Assembly (NCBI GenBank): GCA_022773425.1 | Contig: JALFBM010000020.1 | Coordinates: 1 to 64,000, forward strand | Direction: 5' to 3' | Origin: Selenomonadaceae bacterium | GTDB taxonomy: Bacteria; Bacillota; Negativicutes; Selenomonadales; Selenomonadaceae | DNA: 64,000 bases | In this document: piece by piece, positions 43,766 through 60,639 of the stretch | Numbering within the stretch: the first letter of the stretch is position 1 | How the letters are laid out: each line of letters begins with the position of its first letter | Program-made: the position numbers and the translations under genes | Notes under the pieces: model-generated | Told to the model about the DNA's origin: nothing | Database searches by the model: none | Seen by the model: the letters and a program-made list of their open reading frames with translations, nothing else

Positions 43766-45553
43766 ATGGCAATGGTCGTCAAGAACAACGTAACAGCGCA
43801 GCTCGTGCTCGGTGAGCTGAACAAGAATACGAACAAGCTCGGGAAAGACCTGAAGAAGGTCTCGACCGGCATGAAAATCAACTCGGCCGAGGATGATGCG
43901 TCCGGCTACTCGATATCCGAACGCATGCGCGTACAGATCCGCGGGCTGGATCAGGACAACCAGAACGCGCAGAACGCTGGCAGCCTGCTCAAGACTGCAG
44001 AGGGCGCGCTTTCGTCATCTATCGATATCTTGAAGACGATGAAGGAAAAGGCCATCAACGCGGCGAACGATACGAATACGGACGCCGACCGCGCGACAAT
44101 CCAGAAGGAGCTGGATCAGTCCATCGACCAGCTCGATGACAACGCGGGCGTGACGTTCAATGGCAAGACATTGTTCGACGGGGCGGCTGACTACTCCGAG
44201 AACGCCCAGCAGACCATCATCAAGGCGCTCAACAGCGAGTGGATGGACAGCGGCCTGCAGCTCATCAAGGATACCTATGGCATCTCATTTGACAGCGGCA
44301 GCCCGTTCGTGAAAGATATCAATCTGGTCTTCGAGCATAGCGGCGGAAACACGCTCGCCTATGTGACGAACTGGAGCGGATCCGATGGCAAGGCGAGCAA
44401 GTTGAGCCTGACGGTCAATCTGGATTTCTATGAGGCACTGAACCTGACTGACCCGAACGGCAGCACGACGACAGCGGGCGCCGGGTATCTCGACCGCACG
44501 CTCGCGCACGAGTTCACCCATGCGGTCATGGCGGCGAATATCCAGAATTTCAACAGCCTGCCGACCTATATCAAAGAGGGGGCGGCAGAATATACGCACG
44601 GCATCGACGATGAGCGTATCGTTGCTCTAAGTGGTCTGACTGCTTCGTCGATTCAGGGCGAGTTCACGAGCGGCGGTACATCCGGCTCAGAACTGCCTTA
44701 TGCGGCCGGCTATGTGTTCCTGCATTACCTCAATGCGCACGGTGGGCAGGACAGCGGCACGACGCCGATGAAGCGCTTCATGCGCGTGCTTGCAGAGCAG
44801 GGAGGCAATGCGCTTGACGCGGCGGTATCCGCGGCAACCAAGGGGACATTTTCCACGGCGAAAGAAGCGCAGACCGCGATGCTCGCGGATCTCAATGAGA
44901 CGACGGCGAGCGGCGGCACGATCCAGGACTTCTACAAGAAATACACGGACATCGATATGACGAACAAGCGCGATACGGGTTCAGCCACAGGCTCGAAATC
45001 CGGCCACGGTGACGAGGAGAATGCGCAGAACATCGTGCTCGAGGGACGTTCAACGAAATTCTGGTGGTACCCGAGCAGCAATTCGACGACCATCGACGGG
45101 CTCACGATTGACTGGGGCGACTTCGAGCGGCCGCATGTGCAGGATGCCGGCTTCAAATTCCAGATCGGCACAAAGGCCAATCAGAACATCCACGCGATAT
45201 TCTCCGATATCCACGCAGACGCGCTCGGTCTGCAGGATGCAGATGGAAAGAAACTCAGCGTCGCGACGCGCCCGGACGCCAAGCGTGCGCTGACCATCCT
45301 CGACCGTTCCCTGCAGAAAGCACTCGATCAGGCAACGACCATCGGTTCGCTCGAAAGCCGGCTCGACTACACGCGCAGCAACCTGACGACCGCGAGCGAG
45401 AACGTGCAGAGCGCCGAGTCAACCATCCGCGACGCCGATATGGCCAAAGAAATGACCGCCTACACCAAAGACAACGTGCTCTCACAGGCCTCCCAATCCA
45501 TGCTCGCCCAGGCTAACCAGAACCTCGGCAGCGTCCTTTCCCTGTTGCAGTAA
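43766..45553 (+). CDS. Flagellinolysin: flagellin with embedded zinc metalloprotease domain
   Basis: The 595-residue protein has flagellin ends: MAMVVKNNVTAQLVLGEL and STGMKINSAEDDASGYSIS at the N-terminus, DADMAKEMTAYTKDNVL and MLAQANQNLGSVLSLL at the C-terminus. The central domain (about residues 145-420) replaces the usual variable region and carries HEFTHAVM (H248, E249, H252) and EGAAEY (E271/E275 as third-ligand candidates), a gluzincin arrangement like that of M9-type collagenases. Published flagellinolysins place thousands of protease units along the filament, so this filament is probably proteolytic and surface-exposed. ATG at 43766 follows gaagggaatcccc. It lies 65 bp after flagellin 1. 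Confidence 0.88.
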   Translation: MAMVVKNNVTAQLVLGELNKNTNKLGKDLKKVSTGMKINSAEDDASGYSISERMRVQIRGLDQDNQNAQNAGSLLKTAEGALSSSIDILKTMKEKAINAANDTNTDADRATIQKELDQSIDQLDDNAGVTFNGKTLFDGAADYSENAQQTIIKALNSEWMDSGLQLIKDTYGISFDSGSPFVKDINLVFEHSGGNTLAYVTNWSGSDGKASKLSLTVNLDFYEALNLTDPNGSTTTAGAGYLDRTLAHEFTHAVMAANIQNFNSLPTYIKEGAAEYTHGIDDERIVALSGLTASSIQGEFTSGGTSGSELPYAAGYVFLHYLNAHGGQDSGTTPMKRFMRVLAEQGGNALDAAVSAATKGTFSTAKEAQTAMLADLNETTASGGTIQDFYKKYTDIDMTNKRDTGSATGSKSGHGDEENAQNIVLEGRSTKFWWYPSSNSTTIDGLTIDWGDFERPHVQDAGFKFQIGTKANQNIHAIFSDIHADALGLQDADGKKLSVATRPDAKRALTILDRSLQKALDQATTIGSLESRLDYTRSNLTTASENVQSAESTIRDADMAKEMTAYTKDNVLSQASQSMLAQANQNLGSVLSLLQ

Positions 45554-47710: not shown

Positions 47711-48004
47711 TTATTTCTTGTGACAAAGCGTGCGGTATAGGAGGTAGAGGTGCGCGAGGAAGAAGAACGCAAGGCCGATGACGATGAGGCCGGCCATGAC
47801 GGGGCGGGAAGTGTGCTGCCAGGCGTCGGGGGAGAAGGTCGCGGCGCCGGCGAAGTTGATGAGCACGAGGTAGAAGAACGCCTTTGCGATATGCATGGAT
47901 TGGATCTTGCCGAGGCGCTTCAGCGAGACGGCGAACATGCTGTAGCCGAATGTCTGCCCGGCCACGTAGGCGAGCAACTGGCTGACGGTCCAGAGAAAAG
48001 TCAT
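47711..48004 (-). CDS. Small membrane protein at the end of the nitrogenase-like operon
   Basis: A 97-residue hydrophobic protein with about three membrane segments (around 4-22, 42-57 and 69-88) and no known domain that I recognise. It has a single Cys near the C-terminus. ATG at 48004 overlaps the stop of the upstream NifD/K-like gene (ATGA), and aaaggagc lies 6-8 bases before it, so it is coupled to that operon. It might anchor the complex or pass electrons, but this is speculative. Confidence 0.65.
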   Translation of the reverse strand: MTFLWTVSQLLAYVAGQTFGYSMFAVSLKRLGKIQSMHIAKAFFYLVLINFAGAATFSPDAWQHTSRPVMAGLIVIGLAFFFLAHLYLLYRTLCHKK

Positions 48005-49221
48005 GATGATGCTCCTTTGATCTGCGCGAGAAATGAGGAAAATCCTTCCGCGTCAATCAGGTTGGGAATCTTCGGTTCGTAAAGCCTGCCGGAAAAGCCC
48101 TCGTGTGGCAATGGGATGAAGCGCGCCGTTTCCGGCAGGATCGGCGCGTACATGGGGTCACCGAGAATGTCCTTCGCCTGGTCAAAGAGCGGCTGGAGGT
48201 CCTTTTCATCGGTCGCGCGAAGCGTGTCCTGGCGCAGGAGGATAGGTTCGGTCTCCATCGGGATGATGCAGGTATAGTGACGGTTTGTCTTTTGCTCCAG
48301 CGCATAGGAAAGAGACTGTGCGTAGACGCTTTCGCCGATCAGCAGCCCGCTTTCCTCGAAGTCGTCGTAGGGGGAGTAGGAAAGGTAGAGCGCGCGCGTG
48401 TGCCCGGTCTCGGCGGTCTCGCGCAGCGCCTTGGCGAGCTCCTCCTGCAGGGGCGCCATCGGCACGCCGATGACATAGGGGATGCCGCAGACTTCCTGCA
48501 GCACGCGGGCGGCGCCGAGCCCGCCGTAGGACAGCACGAGATTGACGTCCGCGGCCGGGGCGGTTTCGATGCTTTGCAGCGTCGTGCCGAGGCTCCAGCA
48601 ACTTTGCACAGAGAAGCCCTCGCGGTCGAGCCAGCTGCGGATCGATGCATCGCTGCCGTTGATGGAAAAATCCTGCGGTGTGATACCGAGCAGGTTGACG
48701 GCACATTGATGCGGCGCAGAGGGCTTTTTGGGGCGTGGCGTTTCGCGCGGCCAGTCCTCTGCCGTTCCCGTGACGTGACGCGCGAGTTTTTCCATCGCGA
48801 GATAGATGCCGCGTTCGTAGTAATGCATGCTGTTTGTCGGCAGGGTAAAGGCCGGTACGCCGGTTTTCTCCGCGACGATTTTCGCGAGTGCTTTCATATC
48901 CGTCGATAGCAGAAAGGCGATCTGTGAGGGAATCAGGCAGACGAAACGCGGCTGCTGCTGGCGAACGGTTTCGATGACATCCTTGAGGAAGCGTTCGTCG
49001 CGCCCGAGCACGGCGTCCTGTTCGTTGAGCGCGGATACGTAGATCTTGGCGTCCTGTGTGTACCAGCGCGGCTCATCGTGTGTCGTATAGGTTGAGTTGC
49101 AGCCGGACGGATCGTGGATGACGATCATGCCGCCGAGCTCGAAAAAGGTGGAACACACGCCAAAGGTGTCGGCGGAATAGGTGGAAATGATGCGCGCGGT
49201 TTGATTCAGCATAGGCAGCAT
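48001..49221 (-). CDS. Nitrogenase component 1-like protein, NifK-position partner (protein B)
   Basis: This 406-residue member of the oxidoreductase/nitrogenase component 1 family (PF00148 type) is only distantly related to NifD or NifK. N-terminal cysteines C23 (FGVCSTFF) and C41 (IHDPSGC), and C95 (FVCLIPSQ), sit where NifD/NifK cluster ligands lie; LNEQDAVLGRDERFL resembles the E/DAVFGG loop. It is paralogous to protein C (55376-56479), sharing DEPRW, LGRDE and VPTN. ATG at 49221 or 49212, with ggagg close by. It overlaps the end of protein A. Substrate unknown. Confidence 0.8.
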   Translation of the reverse strand: MLPMLNQTARIISTYSADTFGVCSTFFELGGMIVIHDPSGCNSTYTTHDEPRWYTQDAKIYVSALNEQDAVLGRDERFLKDVIETVRQQQPRFVCLIPSQIAFLLSTDMKALAKIVAEKTGVPAFTLPTNSMHYYERGIYLAMEKLARHVTGTAEDWPRETPRPKKPSAPHQCAVNLLGITPQDFSINGSDASIRSWLDREGFSVQSCWSLGTTLQSIETAPAADVNLVLSYGGLGAARVLQEVCGIPYVIGVPMAPLQEELAKALRETAETGHTRALYLSYSPYDDFEESGLLIGESVYAQSLSYALEQKTNRHYTCIIPMETEPILLRQDTLRATDEKDLQPLFDQAKDILGDPMYAPILPETARFIPLPHEGFSGRLYEPKIPNLIDAEGFSSFLAQIKGASS

Positions 49222-50534
49222 GGGCCTCCTAATCCCTTGGTGCGGATATTTTCCTCAATGGGTTTTTCCTGGCGGAAGGCGTCCACCATTCGCTCAGCGA
49301 GCTTTGCAATGCCGGTGAATCCGTAGAGCCCGCCGCCCTCAATGAGGTTGACGAAGTGTTTGGTCTGATTGAAATAGGCCGCTTTTTGCCCGATGGCGAG
49401 GAGCGGCCCTTTTTCGCTGCCGCGGCGCAGAAGGCGCATATCCGGATGCTTCGTCGCCCAAAGCTCGATGGTGCCGGCGTTTTGCTGCAGCCAGCGAAAA
49501 TCCTCGGCGTCGTCCGGCATACAGCTGTCGGCGTAGATCTTTGTGACGCGGAAGCCGGACTCGACGAGCAGCCGCGCAAGCGAAAAGGGGCGGAAAACCG
49601 CGGCGTAATCCAGTGCGATCGGCGTGGTGCCGAGGAGTTTTTTTGCTCGATCGAGTGCTTGTTTCGCGCGGGCCGCCGCCTCGGCCCAATCCGAAGCGGG
49701 GAGGTGCATGGCCCGGCGCACAGCGTTCAGGGATTCTTTGATTTCGGCTGGGCGCCACGGCTGGCCGACGTAGAGCGATACAGCGCCGCGGCGCTTTGCG
49801 TCTTCTGCGGCCGCCGGCCCGCCAAACGGATGGTACCAGAGATCGAGCGAGCCTTCGCCCATCTGCTGGAATTCGTCATAGGTCCTGCACGTCGTCATAT
49901 CGCGCAGGATCCAGCCGTTATCGGTGAACAGGCGGACGAGCTCCGAATCCGGGTCGGTGGGCAGGTTGGAGCTGAGGAGATTTGCGGCCCTTGGATTCAG
50001 CGGCCGTTTCCGCAGCTGGCGGTAGATTTCACGGCGTTCCCGCTGCTCGGGCGTGATGCTGCGCGTCTGCCGGATCGGATCCATGAAGCATTCGAGAAAG
50101 TCGATTTGCGGCCAACGCGCGCGCAGCACGCGGTAGACATAGCGGAAATTTACACCGAGGAAATGATGGACACAGGCAGGAAAGACGAAAACGGCGCGCG
50201 GAAGCTTGGGAAGACGTGCCAAAATGTCGGAAATGCCCTCGATCAGGAAGGCTTCGTTGTCCTTGTCGACCAGGTCGTTTTCGTGAATCTCAATTGTCGA
50301 GAAGCGGTCCATCGCCCCCATCTCGGCCGCTGTCAGCACGACGCCGCGCACGCAGCCGGACGCACAGATATAGATTTGGTGGGATTCCGGGAGCTGCATG
50401 CCCGTGTGCACGATATTCCATGTGCCGCGCGCTGGCGGTGAGAATTCCAGCGTGGAGGGGAAGAGGGACGGGTAATGTGCGTCCTTTAGAAGCTGGCAGG
50501 CCGCCGAAGGCCGCCCGTTGATCTTTTGCAGCAA
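49206..50534 (-). CDS. Nitrogenase component 1-like protein (protein A)
   Basis: A 442-residue nitrogenase-superfamily protein. C57 and C61 (CASGC), C121 (FPACVHHFLGVNF) and ENDLV fit the pattern of cluster-binding cysteines and the E/DIV loop of NifD. TTCRTYDEFQQM matches STCPDYESFLQM of protein D, showing that A and D are paralogues. The C-terminus ends in CCLC, which D lacks. TTG start at 50534 follows aaggaagga. Its end overlaps protein B, so A and B are very likely partners of one heterodimer or tetramer. Function unknown. Confidence 0.8.
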   Translation of the reverse strand: MLQKINGRPSAACQLLKDAHYPSLFPSTLEFSPPARGTWNIVHTGMQLPESHQIYICASGCVRGVVLTAAEMGAMDRFSTIEIHENDLVDKDNEAFLIEGISDILARLPKLPRAVFVFPACVHHFLGVNFRYVYRVLRARWPQIDFLECFMDPIRQTRSITPEQRERREIYRQLRKRPLNPRAANLLSSNLPTDPDSELVRLFTDNGWILRDMTTCRTYDEFQQMGEGSLDLWYHPFGGPAAAEDAKRRGAVSLYVGQPWRPAEIKESLNAVRRAMHLPASDWAEAAARAKQALDRAKKLLGTTPIALDYAAVFRPFSLARLLVESGFRVTKIYADSCMPDDAEDFRWLQQNAGTIELWATKHPDMRLLRRGSEKGPLLAIGQKAAYFNQTKHFVNLIEGGGLYGFTGIAKLAERMVDAFRQEKPIEENIRTKGLGGPCCLC

Positions 50535-50611
50535 AAAGCATCCTTCCTTCCAATTTTTTGCGTTCCCTCTCCAGGAGGAAAGAACGCCCCGCCTTTTCTA
50601 TGCCTGCATGG

Positions 50612-51655
50612 TCAGCAGATTCTCGGCAGCAGTTCGCCCGTCGGTTCCGGCAGCATGGTTTCGGTGCCGATTTCCGTCTCCACGACGACGCGGCCCGCGT
50701 TTTCCGCGGTGACCTCGCCGATCACAGCGGCTTCTTTCCCGTATGTCGTTTGCCGAAGTGCCGCGGTCAGGGCAGGGGCGAGTGCTTTTGGTGCGAAAAC
50801 GACCAGCCGGCCTTCGCAGGCGAGATAGAGCGGATTCAGGCCGAGCATGCCGCATACGCCCTTTACCGCTGGCTGTACGGGGATCCCGGATTCCTGCAGG
50901 CGGATGCCGACGCCGCTTTCCTCGGCGATTTCGTAGAGGACGGTGCCGACGCCGCCGCGCGTCGCATCGCGCAGGACGTGAAGGTCTCCGCGCGCGGCAT
51001 GGGGCAGGGCATCGACGGTCTCAAACAGGGATGCTACGAGTCCCCAGAGCGGCGCGCAGTCGCTTGTCACCTCTGCCTTGATGTCGAAGTCCTTGCGCGC
51101 GAGCAGGATGGCGCAGCCGTGGCGGCCGATATCGCCCGTCACGATGACGGCGTCGCCCGGCGTTGCGCGGTTTCCGGCAGGGCAGGCATCCGGCAGCACC
51201 TCGCCGATGCCGGTCGTCGTGATAAAGACATGGTCGACCTGTCCGCGGCCCGCGACCTTCGTATCGCCGGCGACGATGCGGACACCGGCCTCTTTTGCCG
51301 TCTGCTCCATCGACGCTGCGATGGTCTCGAGGTCTGCCATCGGGCAGCCTTCCTCAATCTGTATGGCGCACGAAAGGTAGCGCGGCCGCGCGCCCATGCA
51401 CGAAAGGTCGTTGACCGTGCCGCAGATCGAAAGCTTGCCAATATTGCCGCCGGGGTATTGCCATGGGGACACGATGAAACCGTCCGTCGTAAACGCGGCC
51501 TTCTTGCCGCCAAGCGGCAGGATCGCGGCGTCGTCCGCCGTGAATTCCGGATTCTTGAAATGCCGCGCGAAAACCTGTTCGATGAGTTCGCGGGTCTTGC
51601 GTCCTCCCGCGCCATGCGCGAGGGTGATGCGTGCTGTGGAAGCCTGACTTTCCAT
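50612..51655 (-). CDS. hypE: Carbamoyl-dehydratase HypE (cyanide ligand synthesis)
   Basis: The 347-residue HypE uses ATP to dehydrate a carbamoyl thioester on its C-terminal Cys to thiocyanate, the cyanide donor for the iron of [NiFe] hydrogenase. The N-terminal LAHGAGGRKTRELI, the AIR synthase-type DDAAILPLGGKK and VIVTGDIGRHGC, and the last four residues PRIC (reactive Cys) are present, so it should be active. ATG at 51655 shares one base with the stop of hypD (TAATG). Protein A starts 77 bases later. Confidence 0.95.
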   Translation of the reverse strand: MESQASTARITLAHGAGGRKTRELIEQVFARHFKNPEFTADDAAILPLGGKKAAFTTDGFIVSPWQYPGGNIGKLSICGTVNDLSCMGARPRYLSCAIQIEEGCPMADLETIAASMEQTAKEAGVRIVAGDTKVAGRGQVDHVFITTTGIGEVLPDACPAGNRATPGDAVIVTGDIGRHGCAILLARKDFDIKAEVTSDCAPLWGLVASLFETVDALPHAARGDLHVLRDATRGGVGTVLYEIAEESGVGIRLQESGIPVQPAVKGVCGMLGLNPLYLACEGRLVVFAPKALAPALTAALRQTTYGKEAAVIGEVTAENAGRVVVETEIGTETMLPEPTGELLPRIC

Positions 51656-52707
51656 TAGATGATCCCTCCGTATTGATACCATGCCGAGCAGGCGCCTTCG
51701 TGTGACACCATGCAGGCGCCAGTCGGATGTTCCGGCGTGCAGATTTTCCCGAAGAGCGGGCAGTCGGGCGGCTTGCATTTGCCCTGCAGGATTTCTCCGC
51801 AGCGGCAGGCGGGGTTTGCGTGTCCTTCCATTTTCGGGATGTTGTATTTTTTCCGCGCGTCGAAGGAGGCATAGCTTTCGCGCAGCTGCATGCCGCTCGC
51901 GGGGATGATGCCGAGCCCGCGCCATTCTGCGTCACATGGCTCCATGAGAGAGGCGACGAGTTTCTTCGCGGCGGGACTTCCCTCCGGCCTTACCACACGC
52001 GGGTACGCGTTGACGAAGAACGGTTTGCCCTCGCGCGTTTTCTTGATGATGACGGCAAGTGCGGTCAGGATTTCCTTCGCGGTAAAACCGGTCACAACGC
52101 CGGAGGCAATGCCGCGTTTTGCGAGATCCTCCGGGACACTCGTCCCATCAATGGCACAGACATGCCCTGGGTACAGATAGGCGTCGCAGGCATCGGCCAT
52201 CGCGAGATACGCGCCCGGCATGGTCTTGTTCGCCGTGAGCAGAGAAAAGTTCGTGATGCCCGCGGCTTTTGCACGCTGGACAGCCAGGCATGCGCCAGGC
52301 GTCGTCGTCTCAAAGCCGACGGAAAGAAAAACGACCGCCTCGGCCGGGTGCTCGCGGGCGTATTTTTCTGCGTCGAGCGGTGTGTAGACGACCTGAACCT
52401 TTGCGCCGAGGCTCCGCGCGTCCGCGAGACTCCTATGCGTGCCGGGCACGCGTACGAGGTCGCCAAACGTCGTAATCGTCACGTGTCTCTCGGTGGCGAG
52501 GTACAGTGCCTCGTCGATAAACGAGGTCGGTGTCACGCAGACCGGACAGCCAGGTCCTGAAATCAGCTCGATCGTTTTCGGCAGCAGGCTTCGCACGCCG
52601 AGGCGGAAGATCTCATGGGTATGCGTGCCGCAGACCTCCATGATGCGCAGACGAGGCCCATCATACCCCGTGACGATGTCACGGAGTTTTTTTTGTTCTG
52701 GATCCAA
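51655..52707 (-). CDS. hypD: Hydrogenase maturation factor HypD
   Basis: The 350-residue iron-sulfur protein is the scaffold on which Fe(CN)2CO is assembled together with HypC. IMEVCGTHTHEIFRLGV, SGPGCPVCVTP, and the C-terminal cysteine groups (HANPACRCGEILQGKC and CPLFGKIC) contain the conserved Cys for Fe and the 4Fe-4S cluster. The start is TTG at 52707 after aaggaagga. It follows hypC by 38 bases. Confidence 0.95.
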   Translation of the reverse strand: MDPEQKKLRDIVTGYDGPRLRIMEVCGTHTHEIFRLGVRSLLPKTIELISGPGCPVCVTPTSFIDEALYLATERHVTITTFGDLVRVPGTHRSLADARSLGAKVQVVYTPLDAEKYAREHPAEAVVFLSVGFETTTPGACLAVQRAKAAGITNFSLLTANKTMPGAYLAMADACDAYLYPGHVCAIDGTSVPEDLAKRGIASGVVTGFTAKEILTALAVIIKKTREGKPFFVNAYPRVVRPEGSPAAKKLVASLMEPCDAEWRGLGIIPASGMQLRESYASFDARKKYNIPKMEGHANPACRCGEILQGKCKPPDCPLFGKICTPEHPTGACMVSHEGACSAWYQYGGII

Positions 52708-52745
52708 CGGAAATCCTTCCTTTTCGTGTTTGTGTTTGCTCGGCG

Positions 52746-52955
52746 TCAGTCGAGACTTTGCATGACGCGTTCGGATTCGACCGCGTCGTCACTCGTGATC
52801 TTGGCGATGGCGATGCCGGCGTGCACCATGACATAATCGCCGGGGTCCACGTCGTCGAGAAGCTCCGCCGAGACCTCCCGGCGCGCACCGGATGCGTCGA
52901 CAAGCGCCGTGCCATCCTGTATCTTTACAACTTTTGCTGGTAATCCTACACACAT
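52746..52955 (-). CDS. hypC: Hydrogenase maturation chaperone HypC
   Basis: The 69-residue protein begins MCVGLPAKVVKI; the N-terminal Cys2 binds the iron in the HypCD complex and delivers it to the target apoprotein. As no hydrogenase large subunit gene lies in the window, the recipient here is open and may be a nitrogenase-like protein of the same operon. ATG at 52955 follows aaaggagaaacc. The gap to hypF is 63 bases. Confidence 0.95.
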   Translation of the reverse strand: MCVGLPAKVVKIQDGTALVDASGARREVSAELLDDVDPGDYVMVHAGIAIAKITSDDAVESERVMQSLD

Positions 52956-53018
52956 AATACTGGTTTCTCCTTTTTGATCAAAATTGGGTCGATCCGTTGG
53001 CAGCCGCGGTCCTTTCTT

Positions 53019-55379
53019 TTACCGTGGGGCATGGCCGCCTATTGCCAATGCGTACGCAGCCTGCCCGAGCGCGATGCCGCCGTCGTTTGGCGCGATGAGA
53101 TGGTGGCGCAGGACAGTGAAGCCCTCGTTTTCCAGTGCCTTGATGGTAAGCCCCAGGAGCAGGGTATTCTGGAACACGCCGCCGGTGAGGGCGGCGGTCG
53201 AGAGACCGGTCTGCTCGCGCGCCTTGCAGCAGCCCGCCGCGATGAGCGCGGCGAGTCCGGTGTGGAACGCATAGGCGAGGGCATCCGGGCCTTCACCGGC
53301 AAGCCGCCGTTCCATCAGCCATTGAAAAAGGCAGCTCGTCCTGAGCCAAAATGGCGTGTCCTCGCCGGTCTCCCGGATGGGATCTTCAAGGGGCGGGAGC
53401 TCTGCCCCGCGTTTTGCTCCGCGTTCGGCGGCGTATTGCAGGAACATCGCGGCCTCGCCTTCGAAGGTCGAGGCATGGCATATGCCGAGCAGGGCGGAGA
53501 CGGCATCGAACAGCCGTCCGGCGCTCGTGCTGGTTATGGCGTTGACGCCGTGCGTGAGCATGAATAGCTGCGCTTTCCGCTCGTTTGCTCCACACAGCTG
53601 TAGCTGCTGCGCCAGGGCGTCGGTGCGCGACGCACTGCCCGTCAGCAGATAGAGCATGGAGATGGCGTTCCGCCATCCCTCGGTCGAGGACTTATCGCCG
53701 CCGGCCTGCGAGAAAGGCTCGATGCAGCCGAGCCGCGTAAACCCGTCGTAGCGGGTATCGAGAATCTCGCCGCCCCAGATCGTGCCGTCCTCGCCGTATC
53801 CGGTGCCGTCGAACGAGACGCCGATCACGCGGCCGCCGAGCGGCACATCGTTTTCCGCCATGCAGGAAAGGACATGCGCGGCGTGATGCTGGATCGTGAG
53901 GAGGGGGACGCCGCATGCGTCGGCCATCTCGCGGGCTGCGGTCACGCTGTTATAGCGCGGGTGCTTATCGCATACCACGACATCCGGTTTTGTCTCCAGC
54001 AGCTCGAGCAGCCGCCTGGACGTCTCGCGCAGGGCCTGTACCGTGCGCAGGTCGCTGAGGTCGCCGACGTAGGGCGATGGATAGAGCAGACTGCCGCGCC
54101 CGACGCAGAAGGTGTTCTTCAGCTCACCGCCGATCGCGAGCACGCTGCCCGTTTTCTGCTCCCAGGTGCCCGATAGCATGATGGGGAGCGGCGCCCATCC
54201 GCGGCTGCGGCGGATCATATAGGGCTCGCCCTCGAAGAAATCCATAACGGTATCGTCGGCGCGGATCCGGATCTTTCGGTTGTGCGAGAGGAAAAGGTCG
54301 CAAAATCCCTTGAGTGCGGCGAGCGCATCCGCATCGCTGCGGCAGATCGGTGCGCCGGACGGGTTGCCGCTCGTCATGATCAGCGCGTCTGGCATCTGCG
54401 CCTGCAGATCGTCGGGATACACGAAAAGCAGCATTTGGACGGGATTATACGGGAGCATGACGCCGACCTTCGGATTTTCCGGGGCGACGGAGGGGGCCAG
54501 CTTCTCTTTCGGACGCTTTTTCAGCAACAGGATCGGCTTCTGGTGGCCGGTCAGCAGCTCTTCCTGGCCAGGCTCGAGTTCGCAGGTTTGCCGCACGGTC
54601 TCGATATCGCGCAGCATGACCGCGAACGGCTTGACGGGACGGAATTTTTTCTTTCGCAGACGCGAAACCGCCGCCTCGTTATGCGCGTCACAGGCGAGAT
54701 GAAAACCGCCGATGCCCTTGACCGCGACGATTTTTCCTTCGATCAGGGCCTTGCGCGCGGCGTAAAGGGCTTCTTTTCCGCGCGCGGCAGCATGTTCGAT
54801 ACCCGGTTTTTCCCCCATGAGATAGACCTCCGGACCGCAGTCGTTGCAGCAGACGGGCTGCGCGTCGTAACGGCGGCTTTCCGGATCCGTGTATTCCGCA
54901 TGGCAGGCACCGCACATGGGAAATTCCTTCATGCTCGTGCGTTCGCGGTCGTAGGGCATGGCGTCGAGGATGGTGAGCCGCGGTCCGCATGCCGTGCAGT
55001 TGATGAACGGGTGCAGGTAACGGCGGTCGCTGGGATCGTAGAGCTCCGCGCGGCATTTGTCACAAGTCGCGATATCTGGCGAGACGAAGATATCGCCATG
55101 CTCATGCTCACTTTCGATGATGGAAAATCGGTCGAAGGGCGCGTGCGCGCATGGCTTCGTATCGACCTTCAGGATCGAAGCGCGTGCGGGCGCTTCCTTT
55201 TCCAGTCCCTCAAAAAAGGCATGGCAGTCCGCCTCGCTTCCCTGTGCGTAGATTTCCACATAGGAGCCCTTGTTGGCGACGGAGCCCAGGATCTGATGCT
55301 TTGCGGCGAGCCGGTCGACAAACGGGCGGAACCCGACGCCCTGCACGATGCCGTAGACTTTGCTGTGATAGATCGTCAT
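53019..55379 (-). CDS. hypF: Carbamoyltransferase HypF
   Basis: The 786-residue HypF makes carbamoyl-AMP from carbamoyl phosphate and passes the carbamoyl group to HypE. Domains in order: acylphosphatase (VYGIVQGVGFRPFVDRLA), two zinc fingers (CDKC with CTAC; CGAC with CNDC), YrdC-like domain (IVAVKGIGGFHLACDAHNE), and Kae1-like domain with HHAAH and GVSFDGTGYGEDG. Length and motifs are complete. ATG at 55379 overlaps the stop of protein C (ATGA), coupling Hyp synthesis to the nitrogenase-like genes. Confidence 0.96.
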   Translation of the reverse strand: MTIYHSKVYGIVQGVGFRPFVDRLAAKHQILGSVANKGSYVEIYAQGSEADCHAFFEGLEKEAPARASILKVDTKPCAHAPFDRFSIIESEHEHGDIFVSPDIATCDKCRAELYDPSDRRYLHPFINCTACGPRLTILDAMPYDRERTSMKEFPMCGACHAEYTDPESRRYDAQPVCCNDCGPEVYLMGEKPGIEHAAARGKEALYAARKALIEGKIVAVKGIGGFHLACDAHNEAAVSRLRKKKFRPVKPFAVMLRDIETVRQTCELEPGQEELLTGHQKPILLLKKRPKEKLAPSVAPENPKVGVMLPYNPVQMLLFVYPDDLQAQMPDALIMTSGNPSGAPICRSDADALAALKGFCDLFLSHNRKIRIRADDTVMDFFEGEPYMIRRSRGWAPLPIMLSGTWEQKTGSVLAIGGELKNTFCVGRGSLLYPSPYVGDLSDLRTVQALRETSRRLLELLETKPDVVVCDKHPRYNSVTAAREMADACGVPLLTIQHHAAHVLSCMAENDVPLGGRVIGVSFDGTGYGEDGTIWGGEILDTRYDGFTRLGCIEPFSQAGGDKSSTEGWRNAISMLYLLTGSASRTDALAQQLQLCGANERKAQLFMLTHGVNAITSTSAGRLFDAVSALLGICHASTFEGEAAMFLQYAAERGAKRGAELPPLEDPIRETGEDTPFWLRTSCLFQWLMERRLAGEGPDALAYAFHTGLAALIAAGCCKAREQTGLSTAALTGGVFQNTLLLGLTIKALENEGFTVLRHHLIAPNDGGIALGQAAYALAIGGHAPR

Positions 55380-56479
55380 AACACATACCCCTCGTTCTTG
55401 CTGGTTCTCTCGTTGTCGCGTGCCGGGCTGCCATTGACGGCAAAATGCGGGCTGTCGAGGTAGGCTCCCTGATAATCCGGCAGTGCGCGGCGGAATATCG
55501 GATCGCCGAGAATCAGGTCAAATTGCTGCGCGGCGACAAAAGCCACAAACGCTTCCTCGCTGTCAAAGGTCTTATCCTGCGGTTCGGCGTAATCGGGGAC
55601 CTGCTGGAAGAAGGTGCCGCAGGTGATCGCCGTGTCTGGCAGCATCTGCCGGATGCTGCCGCGCAGCGCGTTTGCCTTGAACTGCTGGTCGACGATCAGG
55701 ATCTTTTTTGGATTCAGCGGCAGGCCGCCCGCTGGTTCCTCGTTTGGCAGCAGCGGGAAGCGGACGGTAAACGGCGTGCCGAACCGCTCCTGTGCCCATT
55801 TTGCCGCGGCGAGGCCGGAAGGAGCGATGACGAGGTTTTCCGCGTTTTCGCCGACGTTCTGCCAGTCCTCGAGGGAGCGGTCGATGCCGTAAAGCCGCAC
55901 GGTGTCGAAGCCCAAAGCGAGAAGGCTTCGGCGCAGGGTGCGGCCTTCAAGAATGGGCAGATCAAAGGGGGAGGCACCGAAAACCCCGAGGGTCCGGTGT
56001 CCGCTCTGCGGCCGTTTCTCCGCGGATGCAAAGCGCTTCAGCATGGCGAGATATGCGAGCTCGATCCCTTTATCATAGAGGCCGATGCCGTTTGTCGGCA
56101 CGGCGATGCACGGGAGGCCGAGCCGTTTTTCGGCCATGCGCGTGAGTGCGCGGAAATCCGTGCCGATGACGGCGGGAACCGGCGTGCCGATCAGCGCGGC
56201 AAAGCGCGGGTGGATGGCCGATGCGGCCCGCTTCATCTTTTCGATGAGTTTTTCGTCGCGGCCGAGGATGGCGTCCATATCGCGGAGCCCCGCGGAGAAT
56301 ACGGCGGCGCGACGTAAGGAGGGAAGATGCCAGCGCGGCTCGTCAAAGCCGCAGATATTTCCCGCGCAGCCGCCGGCATCACAGATGACCACCATCGCGC
56401 CGTCAATCGGGAAGAAAACGGATGCCGCGCCGGCATCGTCCGGTGCGAACGGGGGAAGATAGAGCCGTAATCCCTTCAT
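55376..56479 (-). CDS. Nitrogenase component 1-like protein (protein C)
   Basis: A 367-residue nitrogenase-superfamily protein, shorter than protein B, with which it shares DEPRW, LGRDEKLIEKM, VIGTDFRALTRMAEK and VPTNGIGLYDKGIELAYLAMLKRFA. It keeps C38 (DAGGC) and has C33 and C43 nearby, but the B-type Cys at C23 and C95 are replaced by Ser and Ala-type residues. It therefore probably binds a cluster differently, or only with help of D. ATG at 56479 overlaps the stop of D (ATGA). Confidence 0.8.
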   Translation of the reverse strand: MKGLRLYLPPFAPDDAGAASVFFPIDGAMVVICDAGGCAGNICGFDEPRWHLPSLRRAAVFSAGLRDMDAILGRDEKLIEKMKRAASAIHPRFAALIGTPVPAVIGTDFRALTRMAEKRLGLPCIAVPTNGIGLYDKGIELAYLAMLKRFASAEKRPQSGHRTLGVFGASPFDLPILEGRTLRRSLLALGFDTVRLYGIDRSLEDWQNVGENAENLVIAPSGLAAAKWAQERFGTPFTVRFPLLPNEEPAGGLPLNPKKILIVDQQFKANALRGSIRQMLPDTAITCGTFFQQVPDYAEPQDKTFDSEEAFVAFVAAQQFDLILGDPIFRRALPDYQGAYLDSPHFAVNGSPARDNERTSKNEGYVL

Positions 56480-57831
56480 TGCGCGTGTCCCTCCTTTGCT
56501 GCTTCTTCGTCGAGGGCCGCTACCATTTCGTGGAACAGGCGGTGCACCGCGGCGAAGCCGAACGGCTGCTGCGGTTGATCCCAGGGAACAGCGGCAATGC
56601 CCGGGTGGTAGTATGCCGCGTCTTTGCCGAGCGCGAGCGTGATGCCTGACGCCGCAGCGTCGTAGGCGGTCATCGTCGGTGAGAGATTCGTGTAGACCCG
56701 CGTCTGCGGGCTGAGTTTTGCGAGCGCCTGGATATACGCGTAGTCCTGCGGCGATGGGTTCGCGAAGATTTCATCGACCGTCAGGCCGTAGCGGGTGAGG
56801 GCGAGGGCAAGGTCGAACGGATTGGCGTCGAGTCGGCTGCCTACGGCGATGTGCACATCGCCGTAGAGGCGTTGGAAAAGGCGCGCGTGCTGCAGAAGCG
56901 CGGTCTTCGGTGCGCCGAGCATCGGTCCGATGTTCTTAGCCTCTGGCGCCAGAATCGAGCTGAGGGCCAGATATTGGTGCTCAATTTTATCGGCTTGATA
57001 CGTTCTCGTGAGTTCGATGGAGGGGATACCGAGGTCCTTTTCCAGGCGCCTTGCCGCGTCCCGCGCTTCCGGATTCAGCACGAGGTTGAAATTGGCCTGC
57101 GCCATCTGCAGGAAGGATTCGTAATCAGGACAGGTGCTGATCTCGCGGATCCGGCGGAGCCCGATGGACCGGAGGAAAGGGAAGAATTCCGTGTCTCGGT
57201 CAAGAGGCGTGAAGTAGCCGAGAATGTTGCAGGCCGCCGGGTCTTTTTTCGCTTTTTCCAGAAGGGAATACATGGATTCCCGCACAGCGGCCATCGGCGG
57301 GTGGATGCCGTCGCGCGTCAGCGCGTACATGTAGCACGGGCGGACGCGTACCCCTGCGCGTGCCTCTGCCTTCCGCGCGACGCGTTCCATATCCGTGCCG
57401 AGCAGTGCATCGACGCAGGTCAGGCAAAGCATGACGACGGAGGGTTTCTCCTTTCGGCTGTTTACAAACCGTTCTACGGCCTCCGGTATCTTGCGGAGAT
57501 GCGCACCGGTGACGATATCCTTTTCGTCGAGTTCGTAGAACGCGAAACGCTCGCCGAATGGAACGTCGTCCCTTGCGCCGGAAAGCGCCGCGGTATTTCG
57601 CCCGCAGCAGCCCGGCGAGAGCAGGAGCTCGATGGAGCCGGGGACTGAGAGCGCGGCGCGCTTCACACCGAAGCCATCGGCACCGGGGGAGTTGAAGTCG
57701 AGTGCGGCCGGTGAATTCCAGATGAGATGCGTGTCGAGCTGGAATTCCTCAGGGATATCTTCGCGCCCGCGCTTTGCCAGTTCCCGCACGGTCTGATACC
57801 ATGGCACGCGCGTTTTTGTATCCTTTGCCAT
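56476..57831 (-). CDS. Nitrogenase component 1-like protein (protein D)
   Basis: The 451-residue first gene of the operon is a nitrogenase-superfamily protein. Cysteines C75 and C76 (SPGCCGRNT) and C136/C139 (LCLTCVDALLGTD) and the DEKDIV loop resemble NifD cluster-ligand positions. It is paralogous to protein A by STCPDYESFLQM. The long in-frame extension to 58308 was rejected; ATG at 57831 has ggaggag seven bases before. D and C overlap by four bases and are likely partners. Confidence 0.82.
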   Translation of the reverse strand: MAKDTKTRVPWYQTVRELAKRGREDIPEEFQLDTHLIWNSPAALDFNSPGADGFGVKRAALSVPGSIELLLSPGCCGRNTAALSGARDDVPFGERFAFYELDEKDIVTGAHLRKIPEAVERFVNSRKEKPSVVMLCLTCVDALLGTDMERVARKAEARAGVRVRPCYMYALTRDGIHPPMAAVRESMYSLLEKAKKDPAACNILGYFTPLDRDTEFFPFLRSIGLRRIREISTCPDYESFLQMAQANFNLVLNPEARDAARRLEKDLGIPSIELTRTYQADKIEHQYLALSSILAPEAKNIGPMLGAPKTALLQHARLFQRLYGDVHIAVGSRLDANPFDLALALTRYGLTVDEIFANPSPQDYAYIQALAKLSPQTRVYTNLSPTMTAYDAAASGITLALGKDAAYYHPGIAAVPWDQPQQPFGFAAVHRLFHEMVAALDEEAAKEGHAQ

Positions 57832-57894
57832 ATCCTTACTCCTCCACCGGAAAGAAAATATTGGTGTAACCGCTTTCCTAATGATTCTGTACTT

Positions 57895-57923
57895 ATTATA
57901 ATCGTTTTTCGGAGAATTTACCA
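57895..57923 (-). promoter_or_regulatory. Candidate promoter of the nitrogenase-like/hyp operon
   Basis: A minus-strand TATAAT (plus positions 57895-57900), with a poor -35 (TGGTAA at 57918-57923) 17 bp upstream. It lies about 64 bases before the start of protein D. The weak -35 box may mean regulation by an activator. The rest of 57832-58035 shows only AT-rich leader and the VOC ribosome binding site. Confidence 0.4.
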
Positions 57924-58035
57924 TAGGAACAACAAGAAAATTTCGAGAAGAAGCAGGGATAAAACATAAAATGTGGAATAAAGCAAGAGGTTGGAGTTTC
58001 TGAATTTTTTGGAGAACTTTGGAGGTGCAGCTCTT

Positions 58036-58389
58036 ATGAAAACCTATTTGGAACACACCGTCGTACCTGTGGCGGATTTGAATTGGAGCTTGAAATTCTT
58101 TGCCGATGTTTTTGGCATGACGGAGAAGCGGCGCAAGGAGAATACGCCGCGCGGCACGCAGGTCTGGCTTACGGGCGGCCTGCAGCTCGTCGAGCGCAAG
58201 GCAGCTGGCGCAGATGAGACCGATGGCGGCTGGAACCATCATCTCGGCCTCATGGTCAGCGACCTCGAGGCGGCGACCAAGGCCGCGCTTGCCGTACCGG
58301 GGGTCCATCCTATCGAGGGCCAGCCGGCGAAATGGGTCGAGCTCCCGGACGGGACGGTCCTTGAGCTGTTCCAGGCGCCGAAGGACTGA
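58036..58389 (+). CDS. VOC (glyoxalase/bleomycin resistance) family protein
   Basis: A 117-residue single VOC domain: LEHTVVPVADLNWSLKFFAD begins with one metal-type His, GWNHHLGLMVSDLEAA holds the next, and ELPDGTVLELFQ has the terminal Glu. A metal-dependent lyase, isomerase or ligand-binding role is possible. ATG at 58036 follows ggaggtg. Transcribed away from the nitrogenase-like operon, together with the aldo/keto reductase 45 bases downstream. Confidence 0.8.
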   Translation: MKTYLEHTVVPVADLNWSLKFFADVFGMTEKRRKENTPRGTQVWLTGGLQLVERKAAGADETDGGWNHHLGLMVSDLEAATKAALAVPGVHPIEGQPAKWVELPDGTVLELFQAPKD

Positions 58390-58434
58390 GAATCGGCGGC
58401 TTGCTTACTGTGTAGGATATGAGGAGAATTTTTT

Positions 58435-59586
58435 ATGCAAATTCCTGAGAAAAAACTCGGCTTTGGTTTCATGCGAATGCCGCTTACCGATCCGAATGAC
58501 CAGAAGGCGGTGGATATGCCGCAGCTGGAGAAGATGGTCGACACTTTTTTCGCACGCGGCTTTACGTATTGCGATACTGCCTGGATGTACCACGATTTCA
58601 TGAGCGAGGAGATTGTCGGCAAGGCCGTTGTTGACCGCTATCCGCGCGATGCGTTCACGATCGCCACGAAGATGCCGGATATGATGCTCAAGCGCGAAGG
58701 CGAAGCCGAGGAGATTTTCGAGAAGCAGAAGGAAAAGCTGCATACGGATTTTTTTGATTACTATCTCGTGCACGATATGAACAGCGTGAACTACAAGATT
58801 GCGCAGAAATACCACGTGCTCGATTTCGTACAGAAAAAGCGCGCGTCCGGCGAGATCCGCTGCCTCGGTTTTTCCTTCCATGATTCGGCGGATGTTCTCG
58901 AACGGATTCTCGACGAGAACCCGTATTTTGAGTTTGTGCAGCTGCAGATCAACTATCTGGATTGGGAGAGCGCGGGCATTCAGTCGCGCCTCTGCTACGA
59001 GACCTGCGTGAAGCACGGCAAGAAGGTTATCGTCATGGAACCGGTCAAGGGCGGCACGCTGGCAAAGGTACCGCCCGAAGTGGAGCAGATATTCAAGAAG
59101 GCACATCCGGACTGGAGCCCCGCGGAATGGGCCCTGCGCTTCGCGGCGACGCCAGAGCACGTCATGGTCGTGCTGTCCGGCATGAGCAATCCCGCGCAGC
59201 TCGAGGAGAACACGGGATTCATGCAGGACTTCGAGCCGCTTTCCGCGGAGGATTGGGACACGGCGCTGCGTGCAGGCGAGATGATCCGCAAGACCATTGA
59301 GATTCCATGCACGGGATGTCGCTACTGCGTAGAGGCGAGCAAATGCCCAAAGGGCATCCTGATCCCCAATTATTTTTCGCTTTACAACACGCGCAAGCTC
59401 ATGCACCGGCATGATTTCTCCCCCGAGGTCGAATACTATGCGAACTATCTCTCCGAGGGGCACGGCAAGGCGTCGGCATGTATCGCATGCAAGGCTTGCG
59501 AGCGCGTCTGCCCGCAGCATATCCACATTTCCGAATGGATGCCAAAGGTCGCGGCAGATCTTGAGAACGCGAGCTTCATGAAATAA
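58435..59586 (+). CDS. Ferredoxin-type aldo/keto reductase
   Basis: The 383-residue protein has an aldo/keto reductase barrel (FGFMRMPLTDP; catalytic Tyr in CDTAWMYHDFMSE; VHDMNSV) and a C-terminal iron-sulfur part with CTGCRYC and CIACKACERVCP, typical of a bacterial AKR subfamily with ferredoxin clusters. It may transfer electrons between ferredoxin and a carbonyl substrate or serve as redox partner for its neighbours, which is inferred. ATG at 58435 follows gaggagaattttt. Confidence 0.85.
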   Translation: MQIPEKKLGFGFMRMPLTDPNDQKAVDMPQLEKMVDTFFARGFTYCDTAWMYHDFMSEEIVGKAVVDRYPRDAFTIATKMPDMMLKREGEAEEIFEKQKEKLHTDFFDYYLVHDMNSVNYKIAQKYHVLDFVQKKRASGEIRCLGFSFHDSADVLERILDENPYFEFVQLQINYLDWESAGIQSRLCYETCVKHGKKVIVMEPVKGGTLAKVPPEVEQIFKKAHPDWSPAEWALRFAATPEHVMVVLSGMSNPAQLEENTGFMQDFEPLSAEDWDTALRAGEMIRKTIEIPCTGCRYCVEASKCPKGILIPNYFSLYNTRKLMHRHDFSPEVEYYANYLSEGHGKASACIACKACERVCPQHIHISEWMPKVAADLENASFMK

Positions 59587-59650
59587 AGCGGCGAAGGGAT
59601 GCCGTTTGGGAACACAGAAAACAGTATAGTTACCATGGAAAAAGGGACGG

Positions 59651-59686
59651 AAACAGTATAGGCATGCGAGGTCTATGCTGTTTTTT
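59651..59686 (+). terminator. Terminator after the aldo/keto reductase gene
   Basis: Stem aacagtatag / ctatgctgtt with one G-U pair, followed by six T. Confidence 0.8.
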
Positions 59687-59819
59687 GGTAATGAGAGTAC
59701 TTTGTGTAGGATTTTGAGGACAAGAACGGGAACCGTTTCATGTCGAAATATGCGCCGGAGAAGATGGAACTTGCGACGCGCGTTAATCGGGCGAAGTGAA
59801 AAAAGAAACGTGCAGACGA

Positions 59820-59850
59820 AAAAATCCCCAGTTTGGCCGGGGATTTTTTC
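59820..59850. terminator. Bidirectional terminator before the nifH-like gene end
   Basis: Stem aaaatcccc / ggggatttt with nine-base loop and T run; serves the minus-strand nifH-like gene that ends at 59878. Region 59690-59819 holds nothing clear. Confidence 0.85.
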
Positions 59851-59877
59851 GTCGGTGGTCAAGCCATCGATATATCG

Positions 59878-60639
59878 TTATTTGGATGCGTTTTCCGCGA
59901 GAAGGTTTTTCGCAAGCGTCTGGAAGGTCTGGCTGATGGGGAGGGATGCGTCGCCTTCGATGACGGTCTTTCCCAGTTCCTCGTAGTTGTTGATGGCATC
60001 GGAGCGTGGGATGTCCGCGAGGATCTCGAGGTGGCGCGCGCGCGCGAAGGCCTCGACCTTTTCGCGCTCGTCCGGGACGTTGCGGCGGTTCAATACAATA
60101 CCGCGGACCTTGGCGTAGCCGCGGTCCTTGAAGTTTTCGACGGCGGAGGCGATGTTGCCCGCCGCGTAGAGCGCCATCTTTTCTCCACTCGTGACGATCA
60201 GGACATCTTCGGCGTAGCCCTCTCGGATCGGTGCAGCAAAACCGCCGCAGACGACATCGCCGAGCACGTCGTAGAGCACGACATCCGGCTGAAATTTTTC
60301 AAACAGCTCGAGATCCTCGAGCAGTCCGAATGTCGCGACGATGCCGCGGCCCGCGCAGCCGAGCCCCGGCGTCGGGCCGCCGGTCTCGATGCAGAGAATA
60401 CCGTGGTAGCCTGTTTTTGAAATCTGCGCGAGATCCGTCGGCTCCCTGTCGTATTCGCGCAGATAACCCATCACCGACATCAGCGGCTCGCCGCCTAACA
60501 GATTGATGGTCGAGTCCGCTTTCGGGTCGCAGCCGATTTGGATGACGCGTTTTCCGAGACTGGCGAATGCCGCCGCGAGATTGGCGGTCAACGTTGACTT
60601 GCCGATACCGCCTTTGCCGTACACAGCGAGTTTTAACAT
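59878..60639 (-). CDS. NifH-like Fe protein (nitrogenase-superfamily reductase)
   Basis: A 253-residue dimeric ATPase of the NifH/BchL/CfbC family. The P-loop [16 protein letters not shown], both cluster cysteines (GLGCAGRG and [13 protein letters not shown]) and the switch DVLGDV are intact, so it should carry a 4Fe-4S cluster and donate electrons with ATP hydrolysis. Arg after the first Cys (site of ADP-ribosylation in NifH) is kept. It is 30-40 residues shorter at the C-terminus than NifH. ATG at 60639 follows aaaacaggaggcatatgcc. It is the only Fe-protein gene in the window and probably serves A/B and C/D. Confidence 0.92.

Follow-up and report, generated by a model that had tools for sequence, protein, structure and literature searches.

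A nitrogenase-like and Hyp gene cluster as a likely replacement for HydG in H-cluster maturation

We describe a gene cluster, encoded at 48001-60639 on the minus strand of a 64,000-nucleotide stretch of DNA from a Selenomonadaceae bacterium (GenBank assembly GCA_022773425.1, contig JALFBM010000020.1, positions 1 to 64,000; hereafter, ‘the window’), which brings together a NifH-like Fe protein, two pairs of nitrogenase component-1-like proteins (D1/K1 and D2/K2) and the maturation proteins HypF, HypC, HypD and HypE. In the HydEFG system that matures the [FeFe]-hydrogenase HydA, the radical-SAM enzyme HydG converts tyrosine into CO and CN and builds the Fe(CO)2(CN) unit for HydE; to our knowledge, HydG is held to be the sole biological source of the CO and CN ligands of the H-cluster. 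The composition and conservation of the cluster, its linkage to hydE, hydF, aspA and the gene for the TM1266 regulator, and its mutual exclusion with HydG – evidence that is genomic throughout – strongly support a role in H-cluster maturation, and we consider it likely that the cluster replaces HydG. It has a wide distribution in Clostridia, Negativicutes and Coriobacteriia and is common among bacteria of the gut and rumen.

Distribution of the cluster and of HydG

As a class sample we used one fixed set of 200 Negativicutes genomes, in which D1 (threshold E < 1e-130) served as the marker of the cluster. D1 is present in 16 of these genomes, the source genome of the window included, and HydA, HydE and HydF are each encoded in all 16. 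HydG, found in 139 of the 200 genomes, is present in none of the 16. Among the genomes with HydA, 16 carry the cluster without HydG, none carries both, 136 carry HydG without the cluster (136 of the 159 HydA genomes that lack it) and 23 have neither (Fisher p = 2e-12); the same four-way count in the window’s own family is 7, 0, 21 and 2 (p = 2e-5), both p-values ignoring kinship among the genomes, which are related, so that the values are too small and independence is overstated. Within a single genus (g2), one genome (G137) has the cluster and nine others have HydG.

A second sample comprised 50 further named cluster genomes, one of them shared with the class sample. HydF scores above its cut-off in 49 of the 50, and in the fiftieth (L077) it is cut by the contig end. 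HydG is absent from 48 and scores above its cut-off only in Clostridium drakei and C. thailandense; matches to the HydG model below the cut-off of 312 bits (about 170-220 bits) were rejected as HydG, their length and score marking them as ThiH-like paralogues. C. carboxidivorans P7 (L093), whose genome is closed, has the cluster and lacks HydG. An independent survey had found hydE and hydF but no hydG in most acetogenic clostridia, including C. carboxidivorans, and left this unexplained (PMC9431212).

Besides the kinship that the p-values ignore, several observations weigh against a replacement of HydG by the cluster. C. drakei and C. thailandense carry both. Then there are the 23 HydA genomes of the class sample with neither, several of which are incomplete or lack HydF; G015, G020 and G101, however, are 99-100% complete and encode HydE and HydF, with no HydG and no gene of the nitrogenase component 1 family PF00148 (Oxidored_nitro), indicating that HydG can be lost without the cluster being present. 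One cluster (L043, in G133) lacks adjacent HypD and HypE, and the main cluster of a Schwartzia genome (G067) lacks D2 and K2. Finally, in the source genome itself, which is only 82% complete, hydE and hydF are found on a different contig.

The genomes that lack both HydG and the cluster possibly reflect a further, third route to the H-cluster, or else assembly gaps; no Hyp or Nif genes were found near hydF in their examined neighbourhoods. Loci L151-L159 document this situation in G015, G020, G090, G094, G126, G186 and G192, which combine HydA, HydE and HydF with the absence of HydG and of a nitrogenase-like/Hyp cluster near hydF.

Gene neighbourhood in related genomes

A scan of public genomes with D1 yielded 502 encoding stretches. 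The best 80 of these come from Selenomonadaceae, Megasphaera, Lachnospiraceae (Blautia, Anaerobutyricum hallii and others), Clostridium (C. carboxidivorans, C. drakei, C. luticellarii, C. muellerianum and C. thailandense), Oscillospiraceae and Coriobacteriia. Where the flanks suffice, the order NifH-D1-K1-HypF-HypC-HypD-HypE-(NifH2)-D2-K2 recurs, with Hyp genes present at nearly all well-covered loci and a second NifH often accompanying D2. A D1-K1 fusion occurs at 17 of 71 related loci, and a fusion of the second NifH to D2 at four.

Within the examined flanks, hydF (TIGR03918) is found at 22 of the 80 loci, hydE (TIGR03956) at 7 and the gene for TM1266 (the ‘iron-only hydrogenase system’ regulator, TIGR03959) at 24, with at least one of the three at about 34; the family assignments of these neighbours were checked on representatives. 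The order is NifH-D1-HydE-HydF-K1 in L065, L066 and L072 and D1-HydE-K1 in L124, which places H-cluster maturases within the nitrogenase-like operon. In L116, L045 and L046, HydF is followed by aspA, and hydF-aspA adjacency is typical of hyd operons (PMC11736057). As a separate observation, the scores of the HydE homologues against TIGR03956 form two classes, about 315-400 and 470-585 bits, which may correspond to two HydE subfamilies.

This linkage bears on the possibility that HydA is matured by HydE and HydF alone from free CO and cyanide of the cell, the cluster being unrelated and merely co-occurring. HydE and HydF do produce about 1% activation in vitro when HydG is left out, and adding CO or CN increases it (discussed in PMC9431212); moreover, genomes devoid of both HydG and the cluster exist. 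Chance is, however, hard to credit for hydE and hydF sitting between D1 and K1, for the adjacency to hydF, hydE or TM1266 at so many loci and for the 16-to-0 exclusion of HydG, and we regard this explanation as very improbable.

Another explanation extends a proposal made in an earlier note on this DNA, namely that one pair makes a cofactor and the other uses it: the cluster would make a different cyanide/CO-iron cofactor used by one of its own DK pairs, with HydE and HydF recruited for the purpose and the link to HydA indirect. The presence of two DK pairs recalls the NifDK/NifEN division, Fe-CN units would come from HypFCDE, and the fusion of D2 to NifH at four loci is as in a catalytic unit. 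We nonetheless hold this to be improbable: it would leave HydA, intact in cluster genomes that lack HydG, without a source of ligands; D1 was detected in none of the 25 HydA-less genomes of the class sample; and no substrate-handling genes recur in the flanks of related loci. Rather than one pair making a cofactor for the other, both seem to help build the H-cluster of a third enzyme, HydA.

Composition of the cluster

The cluster is larger than the region 48001-57831 described in the earlier note, which located the two pairs correctly and overlooked the Hyp genes between them and the Fe protein beyond. Read along the minus strand from 60639 to 48001, it begins with the NifH-like Fe protein (59878..60639, 253 aa; PF00142, 4.4e-84), which retains the Walker A motif GKGGIGKS and both cluster cysteines, C95 and C131. 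The alpha-like D1 (56476..57831, 451 aa) and the beta-like K1 (55376..56479, 367 aa) follow, corresponding to proteins D and C of the earlier note. Between NifH and D1 lie, at 57991-59586 on the plus strand, a VOC/glyoxalase-like gene and an aldo/keto reductase gene with C-terminal [4Fe-4S] motifs; in relatives, NifH is directly 5’ of D1.

Next come the four Hyp genes, all scoring above curated family cut-offs and with their key motifs intact. HypF (53019..55379, 786 aa; TIGR00143, 730 bits, cut-off 466) belongs to the family that uses carbamoyl phosphate to form the HypE thiocarboxamide. HypC (52746..52955, 69 aa), whose gene we found in the 310 bp that separate HypF from HypD, matches PF01455 above cut-off (85 bits, at 52767-52955) and starts with MCVGLP, Cys2 being kept. 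HypD (51655..52707, 350 aa; TIGR00075, 385 bits, cut-off 193) retains CGTHT and GPGCPVC, and HypE (50612..51670, 352 aa; TIGR02124, 401 bits, cut-off 252) retains the C-terminal PRIC. The cluster closes with the second alpha-like protein, D2 (49206..50534, 442 aa), and the second beta-like protein, K2 (48001..49221, 406 aa), the earlier note’s A and B.

We rejected the idea that the Hyp genes are ordinary [NiFe]-hydrogenase maturation genes. The [NiFe]-hydrogenase large subunit (PF00374) has no match in 47 of the 65 distinct cluster genomes, where the Hyp genes of the cluster must therefore serve another target. Four more genomes match it only weakly, within its first 70 residues, and the 14 that do encode a [NiFe]-hydrogenase are Selenomonadaceae and Clostridium. 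The source genome has such a hydrogenase with its own, separate HypC, HypD and HypE genes adjacent to it, the products of which are 38-45% identical to those of the cluster.

Elsewhere in the window, at 43766-45553 on the plus strand, lies a gene for a flagellin whose N- and C-terminal domains are normal (Pfam) and whose central insert carries a HEFTH zinc-metallopeptidase motif, that is, a flagellinolysin-like proteolytic flagellin.

Ancestry and fold of the D/K pairs

A whole-genome search found D1, K1, D2 and K2 as the sole PF00148 genes of the source genome, with scores of 87.2, 81.9, 51.8 and 88.1 bits, respectively, against a cut-off of 28.6. The genes overlap by 4 nt in D1/K1 and by 16 nt in D2/K2. 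In a maximum-likelihood tree of 65 proteins, NifD/K/E/N and Mar (methylthio-alkane-reductase-like) pairs among them, D1 and D2 are sisters with weak support (88/45) and K1 and K2 with strong support (100/97). These results bear out the earlier view of two paralogous component-1-like pairs, each coupled by overlap, in which A resembles D and B resembles C. The analogy with the NifDK/NifEN paralogy, on the other hand, finds no support in the form given. D1/D2 and K1/K2 branch apart from NifD/K/E/N, as they do from the Mar-like pairs, which makes theirs a duplication distinct from the NifDK/NifEN one, and none of the window’s four proteins reaches a NifD/K/E/N equivalog cut-off (nifD, at best 21-36 bits vs 654; nifE, 50-59 bits vs 505).

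The Fe protein likewise stays below its equivalog cut-offs, with 293 bits vs 394 for nifH and 283.5 bits vs 402 for CfbC, and for CfbD the score is 19.6 bits vs 268; on these grounds we rejected membership in the Nif, Cfb and Bch families. It is equally hard to see the cluster as one more nitrogenase-like reductase of the tetrapyrrole or thioether type (CfbCD, DPOR, COR or Mar) in which the Hyp genes are passengers. It does share its superfamily and an Fe protein partner with these enzymes, but every equivalog cut-off for these families is missed by a wide margin, the Hyp genes are no sporadic passengers, being present at nearly all well-covered loci, and there are two DK pairs, not one; we judge this explanation to be extremely improbable.

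Several other nitrogenase-like sets were encountered along the way. Those of the Negativicutes family f15 (L048 6843-12977, L049 6594-12658 and L051 5434-13652) are NifHDK sets accompanied by TonB/ExbBD-like and ABC-transporter genes, a context of metal or metallophore uptake; we rejected these Nfl pairs as representatives of the same system because of these neighbours, the presence of HydG alongside in some of the genomes and their separate branch in the tree. A Selenomonadaceae genome (G039; L147 1483-15079) has three methylthio-alkane-reductase-like DK pairs with cysteine/methionine sulfur genes and an ABC transporter. The Schwartzia genome G067 has, on a contig other than that of its main cluster, a divergent NifH-D2-K2-like set (L042 10677-14596; 35% to D2 and K2), next to a flavodoxin-like gene.

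Predicted structures agree with the family assignment. The AlphaFold model of a natural D1-K1 fusion from Schwartzia (predicted local distance difference test score, pLDDT, 88) matches nitrogenase, NifEN and DPOR chains, with Z 19 for the D1 part and Z 16.8 to BchB for the K1 part (residues 449-791); the relative placement of D1 and K1 in this model is at odds with NifEN (overall root-mean-square deviation 26 Å). The model of the window’s D2 (pLDDT 90.8) matches NifN/BchB chains with Z 23.9, and K2 is placed in the component-1 superfamily by its sequence. The earlier note had named predicted folds without component-1 architecture as grounds for dropping its idea; with the D1, K1 and D2 models matching nitrogenase, NifEN or DPOR chains at Z 17-24, that objection does not hold.

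Cluster-type cysteines

Cysteine conservation was counted across alignments of 43 D1, 51 K1, 43 D2 and 32 K2 orthologues. D1 has three invariant cysteines (C76, C136 and C139) and a fourth, C75, in 41 of 43 sequences; K1 has invariant C38, with C43 in 50 of 51. Of the candidate cluster ligands that the earlier note had listed, C61 and C121 of D2 are invariant, C57 is kept in 41 of 43 sequences and C41 is the sole invariant cysteine of K2, whereas the other two candidates in K2 are not conserved (C23 in 25 and C95 in 5 of 32).

As landmarks for profile alignment we used Nif cysteines with established roles as cluster and cofactor ligands. D1 C139 and D2 C121 align with the third cluster-ligand cysteine of NifE; the cluster cysteine of NifN is matched by K2 C41. 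The cysteine of the NifE ‘MVCSKAM’ site, which is the position of the iron-molybdenum cofactor (FeMo-co) cysteine, aligns with Asn in D1, a further point against the NifDK/NifEN analogy in its original form. Together, D2 C57, C61 and C121 and K2 C41 give the 3+1 count of the NifEN interface cluster, but, as judged by alignment only, the positions partly differ.

A possible route to the H-cluster

Both pairs probably serve metallocofactor assembly, as the earlier note had supposed. Its paralogous pairs stand, the NifDK/NifEN analogy as it was stated is not supported, and the link to [FeFe]-hydrogenase maturation had gone unseen.

In nitrogenase, NifEN and NifH function in cofactor assembly and insertion, and this is an established precedent for a variant of HydG replacement in which HypFCDE does the replacing by itself, the NifHDK-like proteins carrying the iron unit as scaffolds or insertases only and performing no ligand chemistry. 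HypEF derives cyanide from carbamoyl phosphate, and HypCD already assembles Fe(CN)2(CO) (PMC6802093). This product, however, mismatches the H-cluster, which has one CN per iron, and the Walker A motif and both cluster cysteines of the Fe protein, along with the cluster-type cysteines of the DK pairs, indicate redox work. We consider the scaffold variant the less likely of the two, though a serious alternative within the same overall function.

We lean, if only slightly, towards the NifH-driven D1K1 and D2K2 altering the ligand set of a Hyp-made iron unit. To judge from the intact equivalogs, HypF and HypE would turn carbamoyl phosphate into cyanide, which the HypC-HypD scaffold would attach to iron as in [NiFe]-hydrogenase maturation. 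The NifH-like Fe protein would feed ATP-dependent low-potential electrons into D1K1 and D2K2, and these would convert the Hyp-type Fe(CN)2(CO) towards the HydG-type Fe(CN)(CO)2, either with CO made from CO2 or by removal of one cyanide. The remodelled unit would then pass to HydE and HydF, which would finish the two-iron cluster and load HydA. Nitrogenase Fe proteins can reduce CO2 to CO (PMC9571451), which renders the proposed chemistry plausible. We infer the sequence of steps, what each DK pair acts on and the hand-over to HydE, and a split into scaffold and catalyst between the two pairs is possible. Taken as a whole, a second, tyrosine-independent route to the H-cluster, in which a Hyp line, two nitrogenase-like enzymes and an Fe protein provide HydE and HydF with an Fe(CO)2(CN)-type unit, the pairs supplying CO or trimming cyanide, seems to us somewhat better than an even proposition.

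Every part of the cluster belongs to a known family; the assembly, with its HydG-free route to the H-cluster, is a system of an unknown kind. In the open-access literature, to which our search was limited, we found no published description that joins nitrogenase-like proteins, Hyp and HydF/HydG. If our reading is true, one of the most unusual metal cofactors in biology can also be made by a second, undescribed route, and an unknown pathway underlies the H2 production of many Lachnospiraceae, Megasphaera, Selenomonadaceae and Coriobacteriia of the gut and rumen and of acetogens such as C. carboxidivorans. The published puzzle of hydE and hydF without hydG would be explained, nitrogenase-like proteins would acquire a new task, and the Hyp, Hyd and Nif metallocofactor worlds would be joined. 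The route would also bear on the source of CO for Hyp proteins that work without HypX, and could offer a new tool for [FeFe]-hydrogenase production.

Comparison with known systems

With HydEFG maturation the cluster system has in common the target HydA, the maturases HydE and HydF and the neighbours aspA and TM1266; it differs in that HydG is absent and that HypFCDE, NifH and two DK pairs are found instead. With HypABCDEF maturation it shares HypF, HypC, HypD and HypE as full family members, whereas no HypA or HypB is seen in the window’s cluster, and its ties are to [FeFe]-hydrogenase genes and nitrogenase-like proteins, most cluster genomes having no [NiFe]-hydrogenase.

The likeness to NifEN, NifDK and NifH lies in the component-1 fold, the alpha-beta pairing, the Fe protein and the presence of two paralogous pairs, and extends to the natural alpha-beta fusions seen at some cluster loci, as in NifEN. 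In contrast, the duplication is a separate one, scores are far below all Nif equivalog cut-offs, D1 has Asn in place of the FeMo-co cysteine, and the cluster’s alpha subunit lacks the first cluster cysteine. Finally, CfbCD, DPOR (BchLNB), MarHDK and other Nfl enzymes are, like the proteins described here, nitrogenase-like reductases with an ATP-driven Fe protein that act outside N2 fixation; unlike the cluster, they have a single DK pair or homodimer and other genomic contexts, the cluster proteins miss their equivalog cut-offs, and the Mar-like and TonB/ABC-linked Nfl pairs branch apart from the cluster pairs in the tree.

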